Shown piece by piece: positions 47,170 to 56,017 of a stretch of DNA of 64,000 nt. How positions within the stretch are numbered: position 1 is the stretch's first letter; each line of letters begins with the position of its first letter. Position numbers and translations under genes: made by a program. Below the pieces are notes generated by a model that saw only the letters and a program-made list of their open reading frames with translations, was not told where the DNA came from and made no database searches. The stretch comes from Enteractinococcus fodinae (GTDB lineage Bacteria; Actinomycetota; Actinomycetes; Actinomycetales; Micrococcaceae): the NCBI RefSeq assembly GCF_031458395.1, contig NZ_JAVDYJ010000001.1, positions 248,001 to 312,000 of the forward strand, read 5' to 3'.

Positions 47170-47475
47170 AACGCTGCTCCCCTTCGATAAACGAGAGATA
47201 GTATTTTCCGCTATGCCTCGAATGCTACTACGTGATCCACTCGAAGGCCTCGGCTGAGCAGCCCAAAACGTGGGCAAGATGACGCTTACAAAATTGAGCA
47301 TTCCGACACCGCGGGTAGTACAGTAAAGCAGTCGAGGCACCCTCCAGGATCTCCGTACATTCCTGAGAGTTGTCCGTGCCAGCATCAAGCTGTGACCTCA
47401 TCCCGTCCCACACCACCCGGTGTTTTCGCGCGTCAACTTCTGTGACGCAATCCCGTGCTCACAAGGAGACCACCC
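47170..47475. other. Intergenic region upstream of the BCCT gene
   Basis: 306 bases between divergent genes. A minus-strand frame of about 57-62 codons (47228-47416) looks protein-like (ends CSAEAFEWIT) but has only a weak ribosome site, so it is not called. No clear promoter seen. Confidence 0.4.
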
Positions 47476-49446
47476 ATGAACCCCAACGCGCCTGATAGTC
47501 CCACGGGACCGCATACAAAAGTGCCGTTGACTGAGAAATTGCGATCCAAACGCAAGACCCTAGCCGTCGGGCTCTATCCGGGAGATATCCACCCCGGCCT
47601 GTTGTCCGGTGTTGGCGTCGACGATCAGCAACGCGACTTTCGTGTCGACAAGACGATCTTCGCGGTCACAGCGACCTTCATCGTCGCATTTGTCGCCTGG
47701 GGCATTCTCAGCCCAGAATCGGTGGGAACCGTGGCGAGCGCGGCCTTCAGCTGGGCTATGGAAAACATGGGCTGGCTGTTGAACTTTGCAATGGGCGTGG
47801 GCTTATTCGTCATGCTCTACGTCGCGTTTGGGCGCTACGGCAAAATCAAACTCGGCAAAGATGACGAAAAACCAGAGTTCTCGCGGTTCTCGTGGGTCGC
47901 GATGATGTTCGGGGCCGGGCTGGGCGTGGGCCTATTTTTCTACGGCCCATCCGAACCGCTGTCGCACTTCTTGTCGCCGCCACCGCATACGATGGCAGAT
48001 CAACAAGAGACCGTCAATGAACTCCAACGCGCCGCAGGTGAAGATCCCGGGGTCAACCGAGAAGCCATCCACCAGGGTGTCTCGCAAGCCAGCTACCACT
48101 GGGGTCTGCATATCTGGAGCATGTACGCCCTCGTGGGTGGGGCACTGGCCTATGCGACCTTCCGCCGCGGTCGCCCAACCTTGATCTCTTCGATCTTCCA
48201 AACCCTGTTCGGCAAGTCCAAAACCGACGGCTTCGCAGGCAAACTCATCGACATCTTCGCGATCATTGCCACCCTGTTCGGTACCGCCACAACACTGGGA
48301 CTCTCGGCCATCCAGATCGGTCAGGGTGTCACGATTGTCAGTGGCATGGGCCCGATCGGCAACAACGCGCTGATCCTCATCATCGGGGTGCTCGGCGCAG
48401 GCTTTGTCATCAGTGCGGTCTCCGGGGTCTCGCGCGGGGTTCGGTATCTGTCCAATATCAATATCACCTTCACGCTCGGGCTGGTGCTGTTCGTATTCTT
48501 CGCCGGTCCCACCTTGTACTTGCTGAATCTGGTGCCCTCGGGCATCCTGCACTACATCGACAACTATCTGCCGATGATGGCCAAGTCGCTGTCCTGGGGT
48601 CCCGAAACCGTGGAATTCCAAACCTGGTGGACCGCGTTCTACTGGGCCTGGTGGATCGCCTGGACACCGTTTGTCGGCACCTTCATCGCGCGTATTTCCC
48701 GCGGCCGCACGCTGCGTGAATTCGCGCTGGTCACCATGGGTGTGCCGACGCTGATTCTGATCTTGGCCTTCACTGTGTTCGGTGGGGCCTCGATTATCAA
48801 CTCAATCAACGGGGTCGAAGGTTTCGACGGTGAAGCATCCCCTGAGGCCGTGCTGTTCAATCTGTTCGATACGCTGCCCTTCAACGCGATCACCCCGTTC
48901 ATTTTGATCGGGGTGTTGGCCATCTTTTTCATCACCGCAGCGGACTCGGCCTCGGTGGTCATGGGCATGATGACCTCACGCGGGAATCCGGCACCGAAGA
49001 AGAGCCTGGTGGTGTTCTGGGGACTGTCCATGATGGGCATTGCCATCGTCATGCTGCTTTCCGGTGGCGAAGACGCCCTGTCGGGATTGCAAAGCCTGAC
49101 CTATCTGATTGCCCTGCCCTTTAGTATCGTGCTCATTTTGATGGTCTGGGCTTTCCTGAAAGACCTGTCCACCGACCCAGCCCGTATTCGACATGACTAT
49201 GCTCGCAAAGCCGTGTCAGATGCTGTCATTCGAGGGATCGAAGATCACGGCGAGGAATTTGAGTTCGCGGTGCAGCACTCTCCTGACGGTCGCGGGGCTG
49301 GGACCGGGGTGGATGCGTCGGCGCCGAAATACACCGACTGGTATAAGGAAGAAGCCGAAACCAGCGCGATGAAGCTGGTCACCGGTGAAGAGACCGACCC
49401 GCCAGAGGCCAGCGACAATATCTCTCCGAAGGAACCGAAGGACTAG
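47476..49446 (+). CDS. BCCT-family betaine/choline/carnitine transporter
   Basis: 656-residue secondary carrier with 12 helices. The Trp-rich substrate signature is clear: FYWAWWIAWTPFVGTFIARISRGRTLREF (about residues 388-416; shown in parts), and GAGLGVGLFFYGPSEPL is the sodium/substrate region of helix 3. Long charged N- and C-terminal tails resemble the osmosensing tails of Corynebacterium BetP. AGGAG is 8 bases before the ATG at 47476; a GTG at 47455 is an alternative. With ectD and the OpuAC protein it fits betaine or ectoine uptake under salt stress. Confidence 0.93.
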   Translation: MNPNAPDSPTGPHTKVPLTEKLRSKRKTLAVGLYPGDIHPGLLSGVGVDDQQRDFRVDKTIFAVTATFIVAFVAWGILSPESVGTVASAAFSWAMENMGWLLNFAMGVGLFVMLYVAFGRYGKIKLGKDDEKPEFSRFSWVAMMFGAGLGVGLFFYGPSEPLSHFLSPPPHTMADQQETVNELQRAAGEDPGVNREAIHQGVSQASYHWGLHIWSMYALVGGALAYATFRRGRPTLISSIFQTLFGKSKTDGFAGKLIDIFAIIATLFGTATTLGLSAIQIGQGVTIVSGMGPIGNNALILIIGVLGAGFVISAVSGVSRGVRYLSNINITFTLGLVLFVFFAGPTLYLLNLVPSGILHYIDNYLPMMAKSLSWGPETVEFQTWWTAFYWAWWIAWTPFVGTFIARISRGRTLREFALVTMGVPTLILILAFTVFGGASIINSINGVEGFDGEASPEAVLFNLFDTLPFNAITPFILIGVLAIFFITAADSASVVMGMMTSRGNPAPKKSLVVFWGLSMMGIAIVMLLSGGEDALSGLQSLTYLIALPFSIVLILMVWAFLKDLSTDPARIRHDYARKAVSDAVIRGIEDHGEEFEFAVQHSPDGRGAGTGVDASAPKYTDWYKEEAETSAMKLVTGEETDPPEASDNISPKEPKD

Positions 49447-49474
49447 TCCAACCACGATAGATAAGCTGCGGACA

Positions 49475-49984
49475 TCACGTGCGGTGGGATTGCTCTGTGA
49501 GCTTGCGACCAAGCTCGATACCCCATTGGCGAGCTCTTTCCAGTTCACCGGGCGACAGCGGGCCCTCGTAATCCTCGACATCAAAACTCTCTGGATCAAC
49601 GAGTAACGTACAGCCAAGCTTCTTGAGTTTCTTCGCCGCCTTACGACTGGCATGCCCAGGAAGATTTGGGCGCCTGACATGAGTATCAAACGTGGCGACG
49701 GACAGCGACACGGGCCCGGACTCGAGCCACTCGCGGACACCCGTGGCAATCAATTCACCGCCCCGGTTATGAGCCTCCTGGCGCGTGGCTTCTCGGCTGA
49801 GACCAAACGCATGGGTCGGGGCGCCGACCACAAGCAGATCCACTTGCACCTGGTGTAACGCAGGGGCATCTTGTACAGCACGAACATCTACCTCAATATC
49901 GTGTTCCGTTAGTCCTTCGCTGACGGCCTCGGCAACGGCCGTGGTGTTTCCCCACGCCGATTCGTAAATGATGAGGGCCCGCAT
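49475..49984 (-). CDS. Flavodoxin-family protein
   Basis: 169-residue protein with a flavodoxin-like FMN fold. The phosphate-binding loop is YESAWGNTTAVAEAV (about 8-22), and the isoalloxazine-side loop GAPTHAFGLSREATRQ follows at about 54. The length is typical of single-domain actinobacterial members. Probable electron-transfer or quinone-reductase role; partner unknown. It is convergent with the BCCT gene. Confidence 0.85.
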   Translation of the reverse strand: MRALIIYESAWGNTTAVAEAVSEGLTEHDIEVDVRAVQDAPALHQVQVDLLVVGAPTHAFGLSREATRQEAHNRGGELIATGVREWLESGPVSLSVATFDTHVRRPNLPGHASRKAAKKLKKLGCTLLVDPESFDVEDYEGPLSPGELERARQWGIELGRKLTEQSHRT

Positions 49985-50110
49985 AGAATCCTCCTCTTCC
50001 GTCGGGCTGAGGCAAAGACGCGCTACCGTGAATGGGACTCGTGAGACGACCTTGGGCGTCGGCGGTGGCCCGTCCCGATAGATGCTGCAATGCGCTCATG
50101 GTATTGAATG

Positions 50111-51643
50111 CTAGAGACCGGGTTGTGGCGTTTCGTGATGGGCCGGTTGGTACGGCGGTGGGTCTGTAGGACCCTGGTCGAGCCGGAACGGCGGGTATTC
50201 GTCTCGCAGCAGTAAGACGTAGGTTGAGACACGGTAGGTCCACCGGTTGAGCCCAATCACTAAGGCAAACAGGCCTGCCATATAACGACCGGTAAACAGC
50301 AGCCCGATTGCTGCAATGAGCACCAGCAGCCCTAAAAGCGAGAAACCCCAGCTTGCCGAGGTATTGCCCGCGCCCAGCCAGACGACGCCACCTCCACCTG
50401 CAATGATCCCCAGGAGCAAGATGTGCGGCAGCGCTAGTAGCCACCATTTGACTAGCACTAGCCCGCGAGACAGTTGTGCGGGGTAGGGGACATCTAATTC
50501 GGCGGGGTATGCAGCATGAGCGAGGGTAAATGGCGGATACCGGTCAGTTCCCAATGCCAAGTAGCCGTAAAAGCCCACCCGCCAGCTCCAGCGCAGCACC
50601 CCGACGCTAAAGGCAAACAACGATCGGGGGTACCGGGCCGTAAAGAGAATGACGATTCCAGCGGCGATGGTGGTGACCACCAGAGCGAACCACAGCAAGG
50701 CCAGCACGATATAGTGCGGGATGGCCAGCAACCACTTCACCAACCACAATCCTCGTGATAGCTGCCCGTCGAGATGCCCGCTGAACGCCAGTGGATACAC
50801 TGGCACGGCAGCACCGCTCGTCGTTGCTGCCGGAGATAGTCCGTGGTGCTGCTGCGGATGATCCTGGTCAATGTCTCGGCCCAGGCCAGCCGCGCCCAGT
50901 AGCAGCAGCGGGATACCCAGAACAAGCCCGACGATACCGGCGATCAGTAGGCCGGGGCTGACCGGATCCATCAGCTCGGTGCGAGCGCCCGCCTGCAGAT
51001 CAACCCAGACCGGGCGGGTGCCGTCAGCGTTGAGCACCACCAGTGTCCACTGACCCTCTTGCAGCTCGAACGTGAGGTCTTGGGTACCGGTGCCGGTGGT
51101 CGATTCAACCCAGATATCTTCTTCAGCCGGAGCAGCAGGAGTTGCAGAGCCGGCGACCTCTTGGAGCCGTTGGTCAACCTCGGTGTCCCAGGTCCATTCG
51201 TCTGAAAATTGTTCCTGTTGGGTCCAAGTCACGTCTTCGAGCACCGCGTGCGGGACGTCGTCGAGATAGGCTGCGGCATCGGTCGCCTCGGCGACGCCGA
51301 CGAAGAGTTCTTGATCGGGAATGACAGGGGTCGCACGGATCTGGAAGTTGGCAATGTCTTCTAGGGGTGGGAGCTCGGCCGTCTCGGTTTCTTCGAGTTC
51401 CAGGGTTAATGGCGGGCTGGCAATTGCATGCCCAGTCGTTTGGTAGCGATGCGCGTCGGTGGTGAGGAACTGACCGTCCCGTTGGGCGGCTCCAGCGCTC
51501 AATAGCACAGCCCCCGCAATGATCAGACCAATGCCCAAAAGCATGAGCAAGACGCCGACGACAAGCATCACCCAATTCCAGGGCTTCATGCGTAGCGGTT
51601 GCGTTGGGGCCGAATAATTCGGAGTAGCGGGATAAGCATCCAT
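50111..51643 (-). CDS. DUF4389-containing membrane protein
   Basis: 510-residue membrane protein. An N-terminal helix pair (about 20-50) is followed by a long extracellular part (about 55-245) rich in acidic residues, another helix, and then two homologous four-segment membrane units (about 310-400 and 400-490), each beginning YPLAF/YPAEL-SRGL-LVKW-LLA(I/L)PH and ending W-YRV-YPPF, the DUF4389 repeat. GGAAG lies 6 bases before ATG. No known function; likely cell-envelope. Divergent from the helicase-sigma gene with about 294 bases between. Confidence 0.85.
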   Translation of the reverse strand: MDAYPATPNYSAPTQPLRMKPWNWVMLVVGVLLMLLGIGLIIAGAVLLSAGAAQRDGQFLTTDAHRYQTTGHAIASPPLTLELEETETAELPPLEDIANFQIRATPVIPDQELFVGVAEATDAAAYLDDVPHAVLEDVTWTQQEQFSDEWTWDTEVDQRLQEVAGSATPAAPAEEDIWVESTTGTGTQDLTFELQEGQWTLVVLNADGTRPVWVDLQAGARTELMDPVSPGLLIAGIVGLVLGIPLLLLGAAGLGRDIDQDHPQQHHGLSPAATTSGAAVPVYPLAFSGHLDGQLSRGLWLVKWLLAIPHYIVLALLWFALVVTTIAAGIVILFTARYPRSLFAFSVGVLRWSWRVGFYGYLALGTDRYPPFTLAHAAYPAELDVPYPAQLSRGLVLVKWWLLALPHILLLGIIAGGGGVVWLGAGNTSASWGFSLLGLLVLIAAIGLLFTGRYMAGLFALVIGLNRWTYRVSTYVLLLRDEYPPFRLDQGPTDPPPYQPAHHETPQPGL

Positions 51644-51937
51644 AACGCTTCCTTCGCGATAGCGCCGCAAAGTGAGATACCCGGAGCAACGACTGGGGCT
51701 GGCTTGATGGGACAGCCCCAAATAATCGTCGGGTGATTCTTGACTTTACCATCCGGCAGTGGTTCAGAAGGGTGAATCGGAGGGTGAAATCGGGGCATGC
51801 GTATTTGCTGTGCTAGACATTGTTTGAGTGACCTACCTTGTTTCAAATCGTCATAGAGCGAGTTAAAGCTAGGAACTAGGAATTAGGGCCGATAATTATT
51901 AGTAGCTCAGCTCACACTTTTAGACCGGTGGATCACC
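51644..51937. other. Divergent intergenic region before the helicase-sigma gene
   Basis: 294 bases. It carries three related GGGTGA-type direct repeats (51731, 51770, 51782; see 51769-51793). It is A+T-rich from 51850 to 51910. No confident promoter. Confidence 0.5.
51769..51793. repeat. Tandem direct repeat AGGGTGAATCGG / AGGGTGAAATCGG
   Basis: Two adjacent near-identical 12-13-base units, with a third partial copy (GGGTGATTC) at 51731-51739. Possible multi-site operator. Confidence 0.5.
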
Positions 51938-54379
51938 ATGCAAGATACGGATCTCCCAGTCCTCGATTACCAGACGGTGACCGGGGACTTTCAATTTGCC
52001 GAGTTATACGACTGGCAGCAGCAGGCGCTGCGATCCTGGAAAGCGCATAATTTCCAAGGCGTCATCGAAGCAGTTACCGGAGCAGGGAAAACCCGGGTAG
52101 GGATTGCTGCCATCGCCCAAGCGCTTCGGTTTGGTATGAAGGTCACCGTGCTCGTCCCCACTACTGAATTGCAAGAGCAGTGGATGACCAGCCTTCGTAA
52201 AGACCTGCCGCGTGCTTCGATAGGACGACTCGGTGGCAGCCATACAGCTGATTTCCGTAGTGTGGATGTCATTGTGGCGATCGTCAACACTGCCGGTAGC
52301 CGCTCACTGATCGAACATTTCCGAGCCGGGCTGGTCGTCGCAGACGAGTGTCACCGGTATGCGGCACCATTGTTTGCTCGCGCACTTGATGAACAATACA
52401 TATGGCGTCTGGGGCTCACCGCAACGTACACACGCCATGACGGTCGGAATCAAGTGCTCGACGAATACTTTGGCTCAATTGTCTACAAAATTTGGTACGA
52501 CGAAGCGCAACGCTACGGGGTTATCTCCGAATTCGATATCGCGCTGGTGGGACTCCAACTGCAGAATCATGAGCAGGTCGAGTATGACATGCTGTCAGAT
52601 GAGATTTCCACGGATACGCTCAGTCTGCGCAACTACTTCGACCAGGCGGCACTGAGCGAACACGATTTCATGGAGGCAGTTGGACGTCTATCGAAACTAG
52701 AAGATGGCTCAGCAGCCAGTGCGATCGCTCGACGCTTCCTGCGGAACGTGGCGAAACGCCAAAGCCTCCTGGCTAACACTCCGGTAAAGAATTTTGCTTT
52801 AGCAGCGCTGGCGCCCTCACTTGCTGCTGCAGAACGAGCATTAGTGTTCGGGTCGAGTAAGGAACAAGCACAGGCTGCTACCCAGGCGCTACAAGCCGTT
52901 GGCGTCCCGGCAGGTCACCTCATGTCAGGTATGACGAAGGTCGATCGGTTGGGCACAATGAACGCCTTCCGACGCGGCGAGCTCCATGTTCTGTGTGCAC
53001 CGCGTGTTCTAGACGAAGGTGTGGATGTGCCAGCTGCTGATCTAGCCATCCAGACTTCTGGCACACGGGTGCAGCGACAATTTATCCAACGTCTTGGCCG
53101 CGTCATTCGCAAACGACCCTCCGGGGACCGGGGACGGTTTGTCTACCTCTACGCTTTTGGGACGATTGAAGACCCAGCGCTGCGAGACGATTTCCTGACT
53201 GATGTGCTGCCGTTTGCGCGTGACTACATGTACTTTAACTTGGAGCAGCACCTCGATGAATTGATCGAGTTTCTGGCACCTGAGCCACAACCGGAAATCA
53301 GCGTTGAACTGCCCCTTGAAACGCCAGCACCAACCGAATACGAGACGAGTTCTGAGCAACCAGAATTCGAAGGTCAGCCACCACGCTGGAATGACATTCT
53401 GGACGATGGGGAACTGCCCGAGCAGCTGTCAGAGACTGTACTGACCGACGACATTATTGGCGACTACTTCCGTAAGATTGCACAGTATCCGTTGCTCGCC
53501 CATGAAGAAATGGTGGAGTTGGCCCAACAGGTCGAAGCCGGGGTGTATGCGCAACATCTATTGACCACAAACTACACCGGCTCTCGAAAAGAACGCCGGG
53601 ACTATTGGCGTCTAGTGGACTTAGGCGAGGAAGCATTCAATAGAATGTTTACCTCAAATTTGCGATTAGTGGTATCGGTAGTCAAGCGATACTTCTGGGG
53701 AAATGGGGAGCCCTCTTTTAGCTTTCTTGATGTTATCCAGGAAGGGAATCTTGGACTGCAACGTGCTGTGCAATTGTGGGACTATACCCGGGGCTTCCAG
53801 TTCTCCACATACGCTCATGCTTGGATCCGGCAAGCAGCGACCCGAAGCATTGCCGAGAGTTCACGGACTATACGGTTGCCCGTGCATCTAGTCGAACAGC
53901 TCAATGCTATCCGGAGGATCGAAAATGTATGGATCCACGAGGGAAACGAGCCGACTACGCAAGAGATCGCACTGGTCCTAGAAGAGGAGCCTGACAAAGT
54001 GGATGCCGCCCGGAATGCAGAGGCCAGGATCCTTTCTTTGTCGTCCGAACGGTGGATCAATGGAGTGCCCTATTTACTGGCTGATCTGATCGTGGATGAA
54101 CTCACTTTGGAGGCCGAACAGTGGAGCGTCATAAATTCGTTCCTCCGAGGCCTGCGAATCGCGCTGCAACGAGCAACTGCAGGCTTCAAGGAGCGTGACC
54201 AATCAATCCTGTTCCATCGGTGGGGCCTCACAACCGACGATGGAGAGATGGCCACCTTAGAAGAAGTGGGGCGTAAGTACGGTGTCAGTCGCGAGCGGAT
54301 TCGCCAGATTGAGCGTAAGCTCCTCAAGGAACTCGCCGATCATGAGGGGATCAAAGCTGTGTGGGTGCTCGAGAGGTAG
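51938..54379 (+). CDS. Fusion of XPB/RAD25-like SF2 helicase and sigma-70 factor
   Basis: 813-residue protein with two complete modules. Helicase (about 1-440): DWQQQAL near 25-31, motif I GAGKT 48-52, motif Ia near 70-77, motif II DECH 136-139, motif III TAT 161-163, motif IV region VFGSSKEQ near 303, motif V near 357-363, and motif VI QRLGRVIR 384-391. An acidic/proline linker (about 441-500) follows. Sigma-70 (about 503-800): region 1.2 near 503-540, region 2 (LRLVVSVVKRYF, DVIQEGNLGLQRA, FQFSTYAHAWIRQA) near 575-632, region 3 near 650-700, and region 4.2 helix-turn-helix TLEEVGRKYGVSRERIRQIE near 773-792. There is no region 1.1. One ribosome site, one frame, no stop. Neighbours are unrelated. 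I know of no characterised example. Confidence 0.92.
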   Translation: MQDTDLPVLDYQTVTGDFQFAELYDWQQQALRSWKAHNFQGVIEAVTGAGKTRVGIAAIAQALRFGMKVTVLVPTTELQEQWMTSLRKDLPRASIGRLGGSHTADFRSVDVIVAIVNTAGSRSLIEHFRAGLVVADECHRYAAPLFARALDEQYIWRLGLTATYTRHDGRNQVLDEYFGSIVYKIWYDEAQRYGVISEFDIALVGLQLQNHEQVEYDMLSDEISTDTLSLRNYFDQAALSEHDFMEAVGRLSKLEDGSAASAIARRFLRNVAKRQSLLANTPVKNFALAALAPSLAAAERALVFGSSKEQAQAATQALQAVGVPAGHLMSGMTKVDRLGTMNAFRRGELHVLCAPRVLDEGVDVPAADLAIQTSGTRVQRQFIQRLGRVIRKRPSGDRGRFVYLYAFGTIEDPALRDDFLTDVLPFARDYMYFNLEQHLDELIEFLAPEPQPEISVELPLETPAPTEYETSSEQPEFEGQPPRWNDILDDGELPEQLSETVLTDDIIGDYFRKIAQYPLLAHEEMVELAQQVEAGVYAQHLLTTNYTGSRKERRDYWRLVDLGEEAFNRMFTSNLRLVVSVVKRYFWGNGEPSFSFLDVIQEGNLGLQRAVQLWDYTRGFQFSTYAHAWIRQAATRSIAESSRTIRLPVHLVEQLNAIRRIENVWIHEGNEPTTQEIALVLEEEPDKVDAARNAEARILSLSSERWINGVPYLLADLIVDELTLEAEQWSVINSFLRGLRIALQRATAGFKERDQSILFHRWGLTTDDGEMATLEEVGRKYGVSRERIRQIERKLLKELADHEGIKAVWVLER

Positions 54380-54538
54380 AGGGTGTTACAAGGGATACAT
54401 CAGAGACCCGTGCCCCAGTACTAAAATCGTCCAATCGCTCAATCCATGGTCGGTGCTATTCCTGCTGACTACACTTTCAGGTAGCGGTGTCCGAAAAGTT
54501 TTATCGGGTACTAAAGTTTCCAATATAGGAGGAGCGTT

Positions 54539-56017
54539 ATGACACGAACACAAGAAAACACCTCACTGCTCAAAGATTCACGCTGGCACCACAAGATTCA
54601 CAGCGGCGGCTGGACCTCCGGTTCCGGAGAAGACATCGCGATCACCGAGCCGGCAACCGGCGAAACGCTCGGCACCATCGGCGGGGCCAGCCCCGAGGAC
54701 GTAAAGCGTGCGGCCAAAAAAGCTGCCCGTGCACAGAAAACTTGGGCTGCGATGAAGCCCACCAAGCGCGCTGGCATCCTGCGCAAAGCTGGTCTGCTCT
54801 TCGAACAACACGCTGAAGAACTCCAGTCCTGGGTCATGCGCGAAACCGGCGCAATCCGTCCAAAGGCCGGTCTGGAACTGCACGTTGCCGCGCAAGAATG
54901 TTATGAAGCCGCAGCGCTGTGCACCGCCCCGCAGGGCGATGTACTGGCCACCGATGACCCGCGCTGGTCATTCTCGCGTCGCCGTCCTGCCGGTGTCGTC
55001 GCGGTGATCTCACCGTTCAACTTCCCGTTGATTCTGTCCATCCGTTCGGTTGTGCCAGCACTGGCCCTGGGCAACACCGTGCTGCTGAAACCAGATCCCC
55101 GCACCCCAGTGACCGGTGGGCTGATGATTGCACGCGTACTAGAAGAAGCCGGACTGCCAGAAGATGTGCTCTACCTACTGCCAGGTGGCGGTGACACCGG
55201 TGCTGCCATGACCGAGGCGCCAGAAGTTCGCGTCGTGTCCTTCACTGGTTCCACCGCGGCCGGGCGTAAAGTCGGCGAAGCAGCAAGCCGCAACCTTAAA
55301 CGTGCCCACCTAGAACTCGGCGGCAACAATGCCCTGGTCGTGCTGCCCGGGGCGGATCTCGACGCTGCTGTTTCCGCGGGCGCGTTCGGGTCCTTTATGC
55401 ACCAGGGCCAAGTCTGTATGAGCGCCGGTCGTCACTTGGTGCACGAATCGATTCGTGACGAGTACGTGGCCAAGCTGGCCGAAAAAGCCAAGAACATGCC
55501 GGTCGGCAACCCCAACAAAGAATCAGTTGCGATGGGCCCGATCATCGACGAAGGTCAGCGGGATAACATCCACTCGATCGTCGAAAATGCTCAGTCCCAA
55601 GGCGCCAAAGTGGAAGCCGGTGGCGAGTACAAGAAACTGTTTTACTCGCCAACTGTGCTGTCGAATGTCAGCAAAAACAACACCGCCTGGACCGATGAAA
55701 TCTTCGGGCCGGTGGCTCCAGTCATGTCGTTCTCGAGCCTTGAAGAAGCCGCAGATATCGTCAATGCATCCGACTACGGTCTGTCTGTGGGCATCCTCGG
55801 AGATGTCGGGCCCGCGATGGATCTTGCGGACATGATCGACTCGGGCATCATCCACATCAACGAACAAACCGTCGGAGACGAAGCAACCGCACCATTTGGT
55901 GGCACGGGAGCCTCCGGTACCGGTTCCCGATTCGGTGGCGCGCAAGCCAATATCGAAGCGTTCACCGAAACCCAGTGGCTGACCGTGCGCTCCACGATCG
56001 CCGAATACCCGTTCTAA
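54539..56017 (+). CDS. Aldehyde dehydrogenase, benzaldehyde-dehydrogenase-like
   Basis: 492-residue NAD(P)-dependent aldehyde dehydrogenase. Active-site Cys is in QGQVCMSAGR (about 292-301), the general-base Glu in LELGGNNALV (about 258-267), and the cofactor loop FTGSTAAGRKVGE is present. The nearest named group is benzaldehyde/vanillin-type dehydrogenases. GGAGGAG precedes the ATG, and a strong terminator follows. A single-gene unit, 160 bases after the helicase-sigma gene. Confidence 0.9.
   Translation: MTRTQENTSLLKDSRWHHKIHSGGWTSGSGEDIAITEPATGETLGTIGGASPEDVKRAAKKAARAQKTWAAMKPTKRAGILRKAGLLFEQHAEELQSWVMRETGAIRPKAGLELHVAAQECYEAAALCTAPQGDVLATDDPRWSFSRRRPAGVVAVISPFNFPLILSIRSVVPALALGNTVLLKPDPRTPVTGGLMIARVLEEAGLPEDVLYLLPGGGDTGAAMTEAPEVRVVSFTGSTAAGRKVGEAASRNLKRAHLELGGNNALVVLPGADLDAAVSAGAFGSFMHQGQVCMSAGRHLVHESIRDEYVAKLAEKAKNMPVGNPNKESVAMGPIIDEGQRDNIHSIVENAQSQGAKVEAGGEYKKLFYSPTVLSNVSKNNTAWTDEIFGPVAPVMSFSSLEEAADIVNASDYGLSVGILGDVGPAMDLADMIDSGIIHINEQTVGDEATAPFGGTGASGTGSRFGGAQANIEAFTETQWLTVRSTIAEYPF

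Follow-up and report, generated by a model that had tools for sequence, protein, structure and literature searches.

A bacterial sigma-70 factor joined to an XPB-like helicase: an actinobacterial fusion family with a possible role in anti-invader defence

Bacterial sigma-70 promoters open without ATP hydrolysis; sigma-54 and RNA polymerase II need ATP-driven helpers. Here we describe a gene in which a sigma-70 factor is joined to an XPB-like helicase in a single chain. It lies in a 64,000-nucleotide stretch (the window) of the genome of Enteractinococcus fodinae, a member of the Micrococcaceae (contig NZ_JAVDYJ010000001.1, positions 248,001 to 312,000). It is one of 24 complete genes with the same domain order, which make up a coherent family of helicase-sigma fusions in actinobacteria; the family moves horizontally, as the patchy spread, plasmid copies and an empty site in related genomes indicate. 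The family belongs largely to the defence (anti-invader) gene pool. We propose that the fusion is a sigma-guided translocase in anti-invader defence, its output being left unspecified, and regard the arguments for and against this proposal as evenly balanced. The parts of the fusion are of known kinds, and the combination appears unstudied: no paper on it was found in searches of the open-access literature. The first-pass annotation of the window knew of no characterised protein with this layout.

The closest described protein on the helicase side is XPB (ERCC3/RAD25), which is found in TFIIH and in archaeal XPB-Bax1. The first half of the fusion has the XPB-type two-domain helicase fold, XPB is its best fold match, and archaeal XPB is matched by sequence in the PDB at residues 21-402. 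In contrast to XPB, the fusion scores 113.7 bits with NCBIfam model NF045503 (cut-off 610) and 26.9 with Pfam PF16203 (cut-off 27), and its helicase is attached to a sigma factor. After motif III it has R-x-D (RHD in the window protein) in place of the RED motif of XPB; R-x-D is found in 23 of 23 aligned fusions, and RED itself only in that of Pseudoclavibacter sp. 13-3. XPB also carries an N-terminal damage-recognition domain, for which there is no room in the fusion since the helicase starts near residue 22 (residues 1-19 are predicted to be disordered). Among PADLOC profiles the helicase half is best matched by PbeA (197 bits), the superfamily 2 (SF2) helicase of the PbeABCD (CxC ABC-ATPase) antiviral system. 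PbeA is described as having an HKD nuclease fused to its helicase (PMC10853773). The nuclease part is unmatched in the fusion, which covers the PbeA profile only at positions 251-620 of 672, and PADLOC matches to PbeBCD are absent among nine neighbouring proteins in the window.

On the sigma side, the fusion resembles group 1 and 2 sigma-70 factors (SigA/HrdB and SigB) in its regions 1.2, 2 and 4 and in its core-binding and promoter-reading residues, but it has a helicase in place of region 1.1 and its region 3 is degenerate. Its sigma part also matches that of MzaA, the sigma protein of the MZA anti-phage system (115 bits in PADLOC; 210.5 bits with NF041931 over residues 553-803 only, far below the cut-off of 800). 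The match is limited to positions 463-705 of the 726 in the MzaA profile, so the first part of MzaA is unlike the helicase half. Genes mzaBCDE are absent from the locus, where the same nine neighbouring proteins have no PADLOC match of any kind. Sigma-related DNA-binding parts are described in other defence proteins, namely BrxL of BREX and a DndH variant (PMC12839542, PMC10853773). As described there, these proteins have a single helix-turn-helix (HTH) type domain, whereas the fusion has regions 1.2 to 4.

The window gene runs on the forward strand (as do all features given below for the window) from an ATG at 51938 to a stop at 54379 and encodes 813 amino acids in one frame with no internal stop, as the first-pass annotation had stated. 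The four SF2 motifs named there are all present in the helicase half (residues 22-445; 52001..53272): GAGKT (motif I, Walker A; residues 48-52; 52079..52093), DECH (motif II; residues 136-139; 52343..52354), TAT (residues 161-163) and QRLGRVIR (motif VI; residues 384-391; 53087..53110). These motifs are intact in all 23 aligned fusions, with G-A/S-GKT and QRLGR in each of them, DECH in 22 and DETH in one. A variable linker follows (residues 446-504; 53273..53449), with predicted disorder at residues 452-502 and an AlphaFold confidence score (pLDDT) below 50; its length is 39-96 residues across the 23 fusions. The sigma half consists of region 1.2 (PF00140; 53450..53551), region 2, which serves core binding and the -10 element (PF04542; 53645..53866), a degenerate region 3 (53894..54061), and region 4 with the -35-reading helix SRERIRQIE (PF04545; 54188..54334). 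In Pfam searches of both halves, a check suggested by the first-pass annotation, ResIII (residues 22-165), Helicase_C (295-392) and Sigma70 regions 1.2 (505-538), 2 (570-643) and 4 (751-799) exceeded their cut-offs, and region 3 (PF04539; 653-708) fell slightly under it with 23.4 bits against 25.3. The sigma factor, described there as complete from region 1.2 to 4.2, is thus recognisable in regions 1.2, 2 and 4 but degenerate in region 3. NCBIfam models of the SigB/SigA type match the second half, and XPB and Dnd restriction helicase models match the first; among 25 of 71 matches listed, the general sigma model TIGR02937 alone exceeds its curated cut-off (76.5 against 42.9 bits). In the PDB, HrdB/SigA is matched at residues 460-800.

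One explanation of such a protein would be an artefact: either the gene is decaying, or errors in sequencing or assembly have joined two genes. Broken or split versions do exist: in Propionibacterium acidifaciens the two halves are encoded in separate, overlapping frames (L102 5860-8935). However, 24 complete single-frame genes have the same order, both halves are under purifying selection in relatives, and the window lies inside a single 2.93 Mb contig. The artefact is refuted for the family, and we assign it a negligible probability; the opinion of the first-pass annotation that the fusion is not an assembly error is upheld. No ATG, GTG or TTG occurs in frame from residue 443 to residue 518, and the linker therefore offers the sigma half no separate start. 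One weak ribosome-site-like run, GGTGGA (51927..51932), lies 5 nucleotides ahead of the ATG. The GC content at third codon positions is alike in both halves (0.57 in the helicase half, 0.59 in the sigma half and 0.57 in the whole gene), compared with a median of 0.69 in 33 neighbouring frames of at least 250 codons.

Both halves form one unit under purifying selection in the relatives. The ratio of nonsynonymous to synonymous substitution rates (Nei-Gojobori) could be measured in five pairs for the two halves, giving 0.05-0.07 in the helicase and 0.05-0.14 in the sigma part, and in four pairs for the linker, where it reaches 0.32-0.51; in a sixth pair, the window gene and that of Enteractinococcus helveticum, silent sites are saturated. 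Pairwise distances of the helicase halves correlate with those of the sigma halves (r 0.92; none of 2000 permutations was as high), which shows that the halves have co-evolved. In a helicase tree built by a quick method, 25 fusion rows, including the P. acidifaciens helicase, fall in one clade of 29 with support 86, together with four unfused rows. In the sigma tree a supported branch separates 22 of 24 fusion rows from the SigA and SigB rows. The remaining two, G403 and the Geodermatophilaceae protein (whose row ended before region 4), group with SigA/SigB; these two may have undergone a sigma exchange or a second capture.

The 24 complete fusions comprise the 23 aligned ones, the window protein included, and one Geodermatophilaceae protein of 992 amino acids, in which regions 2 and 4 were checked. 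The nearest named relative among the matches listed is that of E. helveticum (76% identity in the helicase half). In a sample of 396 genomes of the order (E-value up to 1e-70) there were 11 matches, of which eight are fusions and three helicase only. A phylum sample, also of 396 genomes, gave 29 matches at 1e-68; among the 20 loci fetched, fusions were present in the window's genome and in an Arthrobacter-group genome (G017), and the other 18 had a helicase without a sigma part in the fetched stretch. Named genomes scanned with the helicase half contained fusions in 16 of the best 80 loci, one of them clipped by a contig end; the P. acidifaciens locus with its two frames comes on top of these 16. 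Pseudoclavibacter caeni has two copies. At least two fusion proteins are present in public records, labelled only "sigma-70 family RNA polymerase sigma factor". The large plasmids pACHL01 (L206 8917-11889) and pYJN5-1 (L207 8935-11904) carry fusions of 990 and 989 amino acids within a shared block, a few kb from dnaE. These proteins have tails of about 195 amino acids, and a helicase-associated domain was found in the pACHL01 tail, which was scanned; the pYJN5-1 tail is alike. Both tails have repeated acidic DPF motifs reminiscent of the tips of single-stranded DNA-binding proteins. A phage origin of the fusion was considered and rejected: the 10 phage records listed out of 57 match the sigma half only, and 44 IMG/VR matches are 20-35% identical in the helicase.

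The assignment of the family to the defence gene pool is based on its neighbours. A defence-like gene lies within 1.5 kb of the fusion in 14 of the 24 loci. The fusion apparently heads a group of three close genes in P. caeni and Tessaracoccus, the second gene encoding a DrmD-like SNF2 helicase and the third a homologue of type IIG restriction enzyme-methyltransferases (1558-1580 amino acids). The type IIG assignment comes from the homologue in Aestuariimicrobium (1436 bits), with which the other two share 43-55% identity, as they do with each other. In Aestuariimicrobium the SNF2-type IIG pair is located about 10 kb upstream of the fusion, and a HEC-05 protein (641 bits) adjoins the fusion. 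A conserved pair of a DrmD-like SNF2 helicase and a type IIG-like enzyme of about 1500 amino acids recurs in Propionibacteriaceae and Pseudoclavibacter (L214, L215, L216, L220). BrxHI (907 bits) and BrxD (664 bits) lie beside the fusion in B. daeguense, ZacC (1076 bits) lies 1.3 kb from it in G176, a GmrSD-RAMA protein near it in Brevibacterium sp. CCUG 69071, an AbiH protein 1.4 kb from it in G121, and GmrSD-type or HEC-05-like proteins near it in B. linens (1.1 kb) and G399. A NERD-helicase adjoins the fusion in four Arthrobacter-group loci (G017 was scanned, the others were assigned by BLAST cluster), and the Pseudarthrobacter fusion overlaps by 4 nucleotides a gene that clusters with a PD-(D/E)XK nuclease of G017. 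In Geodermatophilaceae the helicase-sigma fusion comes after an HNH gene, which in turn follows a gene for another helicase of this clade with what appears to be a type IV restriction enzyme attached; BrxHI-like and GmrSD-like genes are nearby.

The sigma half retains most of the residues expected of a promoter-binding factor (E. coli numbering). Equivalents of D403, F427, Y430, W434, Q437, H455, R584, E585, R588 and Q589 are kept in 23 of 23 fusions, and those of Q406, E458, N409 and T440 in 21, 20, 19 and 14, respectively. The window protein has the core-binding motif D-V-IQEGN. The first-pass annotation considered its promoter-reading helices close to those of the housekeeping factor. This holds for the six residues that read the -10 and -35 elements (Q437, T440, R584, E585, R588, Q589), all of which are present; among the melting residues F427, Y430 and W434 are present, but W433 is replaced with Ala. 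W433 is lost only in the Enteractinococcus pair (Asn in E. helveticum) and is Trp in the other 21 of 23. Identity of the window protein to its own SigA is 61% in region 2 and 28% in regions 3.0-3.2. Median identities of the fusions to the genome's SigA are 69% in region 2, 48% in region 1.2, 46% in region 4 and 23% in regions 3.0-3.2; for comparison, three SigB-like factors show 56-76% in regions 3.0-3.2. Taken together, these counts and identities mean that the contacts with promoter and core are preserved, unlike the finger-bearing region.

Such conservation is also what one would expect of an ATP-driven alternative sigma factor, the holoenzyme of which would start at its own promoters, with the XPB-like motor opening DNA as in TFIIH, which does so for RNA polymerase II, and the adjoining defence genes as a regulon. 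Region 1.1 of sigma factors lies near downstream DNA, and the N-terminal attachment puts the motor in its place; the fold match to XPB points the same way, as does the fact that in two genera the fusion apparently heads an operon containing defence genes. The loss of W433 in Enteractinococcus could be tolerable if the motor melts DNA, but its retention in the other fusions means that motor-assisted melting does not generally substitute for it. The degenerate region 3 and finger and the variation of partner genes from locus to locus also argue against this explanation, which we find doubtful.

Sigma parts and helicases of this kind also meet outside the fusions. G037 and G168 have the helicases most closely related to the clade with the fusions while lying outside it (tree support 86). 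In G037 the helicase lies in a DISARM-like locus with DrmA (346 bits), DrmB (114 bits) and a cytosine methyltransferase; a separate sigma protein of 737 amino acids is encoded just before drmA, with a 4-nucleotide overlap and about 10 kb from the helicase (L012 5709-7922, forward strand). It comprises about 400 unassigned residues followed by sigma-70 regions 1.2-4, and is MzaA-like in the sigma part. No such gene was found in the 39 kb of G168 that the analysis covered (E-value up to 1e-15). A sigma factor and a related helicase as neighbours in a defence-like locus fit a shared task, though this is a single case. Five Rhodococcus loci (L058, L060, L062, L064, L084) encode helicase relatives with a C-terminal HTH like sigma region 4 only, which fall in a separate helicase clade and represent a second, smaller sigma-helicase combination. 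Other helicase relatives are joined to a winged helix or, in Geodermatophilaceae, to a type IV (methyl-directed) restriction enzyme (1286-1346 amino acids; L221 81-4121, L045 2266-6126; the restriction assignment rests on the scanned Blastococcus homologue L045, 710 bits). The helicase is thus the constant element, with what looks like a targeting or effector module attached to it.

This raises the alternative that the sigma half is a tether only, bringing the helicase to polymerase or to DNA that resembles a promoter, with no initiation at all. The helicase would then serve restriction, repair or the removal of polymerase, in the manner of Mfd, RapA and HelD. The degenerate region 3 would agree with a tether, as would the plasmid copies near dnaE and the helicase-associated domain in the one scanned. 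On the other hand, regions 1.2, 2 and 4 with their -10 and -35 residues exceed the needs of a simple tether, and the Rhodococcus proteins sit in a different helicase clade; we consider this alternative rather unlikely.

Under the proposal of a sigma-guided translocase, the sigma half would dock on core RNA polymerase and read -10 and -35 elements of the SigA type. The XPB-like motor, replacing region 1.1, would be held by the flexible tether at promoter DNA and would translocate on it with ATP. It would then act on RNA polymerase-promoter complexes, stalling or remodelling those on incoming DNA; alternatively, it might force transcription of the defence genes that the fusion travels with. Core polymerase binding, an ATP-driven step at promoters and a defence role of the fusion are what we infer, and the motor might equally open promoter complexes or disrupt them. 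The interpretation in the first-pass annotation, a sigma factor tied to an XPB-like motor for ATP-driven opening or for restricted transcription, is supported in part. A bolder reading is that the fusion is a sigma factor equipped with a DNA motor of its own, driven by ATP, and so combines in one bacterial chain what sigma and TFIIH-XPB do together. Actinobacteria and their plasmids would use it to act on promoters, either those of invading DNA or in favour of defence genes, as the ordinary sigma-70 polymerase is unable to. We hold this reading only tentatively, the balance leaning somewhat against it.

Several observations weigh against a defence role or against productive initiation. Ten of the 24 loci have no adjoining defence gene seen, although neighbours are mostly unscanned in these: the window, E. 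helveticum, the second P. caeni copy, B. luteolum, Granulicoccus, a Propionibacterium metagenome-assembled genome, G403, the two plasmids, and Pseudoclavibacter sp. 13-3 (apart from a GmrSD_C-Excalibur protein). The NERD-helicase assignment is weak, with 80-96 bits in the one locus scanned. Partners differ between loci, so no single defence system is indicated; a fixed partner gene was looked for across the loci and none was found. As a control we took twenty stretches of 13 kb from genomes with fusions, at positions fixed beforehand (99 proteins), and these also match PADLOC, with 44 families at 1e-20; among the 25 families listed, 24 were matched by one protein each and one by two. At 1e-60 the control matches 15 families, each by one protein; all have kinase-type names, so this is probably one gene. 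At the same threshold seven of the 24 fusion loci match (P. caeni, Tessaracoccus, Aestuariimicrobium, Geodermatophilaceae, B. daeguense, CCUG 69071 and G176). The neighbours of the fusions were hand-picked, whereas a rule selected the control proteins, so the difference is suggestive and not a formal test. Finally, canonical initiation is not assured, given the degenerate region 3 and finger, the incomplete retention of T440 and the loss of W433 in the window protein.

The fusion of the window itself sits in a variable site between a BCCT transporter gene (47455..49446) and an aldehyde dehydrogenase gene (54539..56017), both identified by Pfam. The same two genes flank the fusion in E. helveticum. 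Within the genus the junction (49447-54538 in the window) is empty in G004 and G008, where the two genes adjoin, and holds other genes in G006; in the window it holds frames at 49475-51721 besides the fusion. Such a site, like the low GC content of the gene at third codon positions, is what a mobile cargo gene can show; no mobile-element gene was identified beside the window fusion. Other neighbours include argG, a protein of the domain of unknown function DUF4389 and an anion symporter. A defence cluster around the window gene was sought and not found: ten neighbours are metabolic, transport or DUF proteins or have no Pfam family, and Pfam and PADLOC scans of the neighbours in the window found no BREX, DISARM or type IIG restriction core genes beside the fusion. 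The window's genome has three frames with sigma-70 region 2 according to Pfam: a SigA-like one of 432 amino acids, one of 262 amino acids, and the fusion. Unlinked to the fusion, the same genome has a gene pair (L236 6332-12474; G000:C1, about 2.911-2.917 Mb) homologous to UvrD-like (32%) and AddB-like (30%) genes near the G017 fusion. An AddB-like nuclease was found in 39 of 396 genomes, in four of eight with the fusion and in 35 of 388 others (p 0.004, assuming the same 396 genomes); one genus commonly has it in genomes that lack the fusion, and the association may thus reflect shared descent.

If the fusion is indeed a sigma factor with its own motor, it would be an exception to the rule that no ATP hydrolysis is needed to melt sigma-70 promoters. 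One natural protein, retained in several families with selection on both of its halves, allows one to ask directly if the opening of sigma-70 promoters can be driven or policed by a translocase. Along with MzaA, BrxL and the DndH variant, the fusion adds to the signs that anti-phage defence makes use of sigma parts, and it suggests a mobile gene that may be able to redirect the polymerase of its host.

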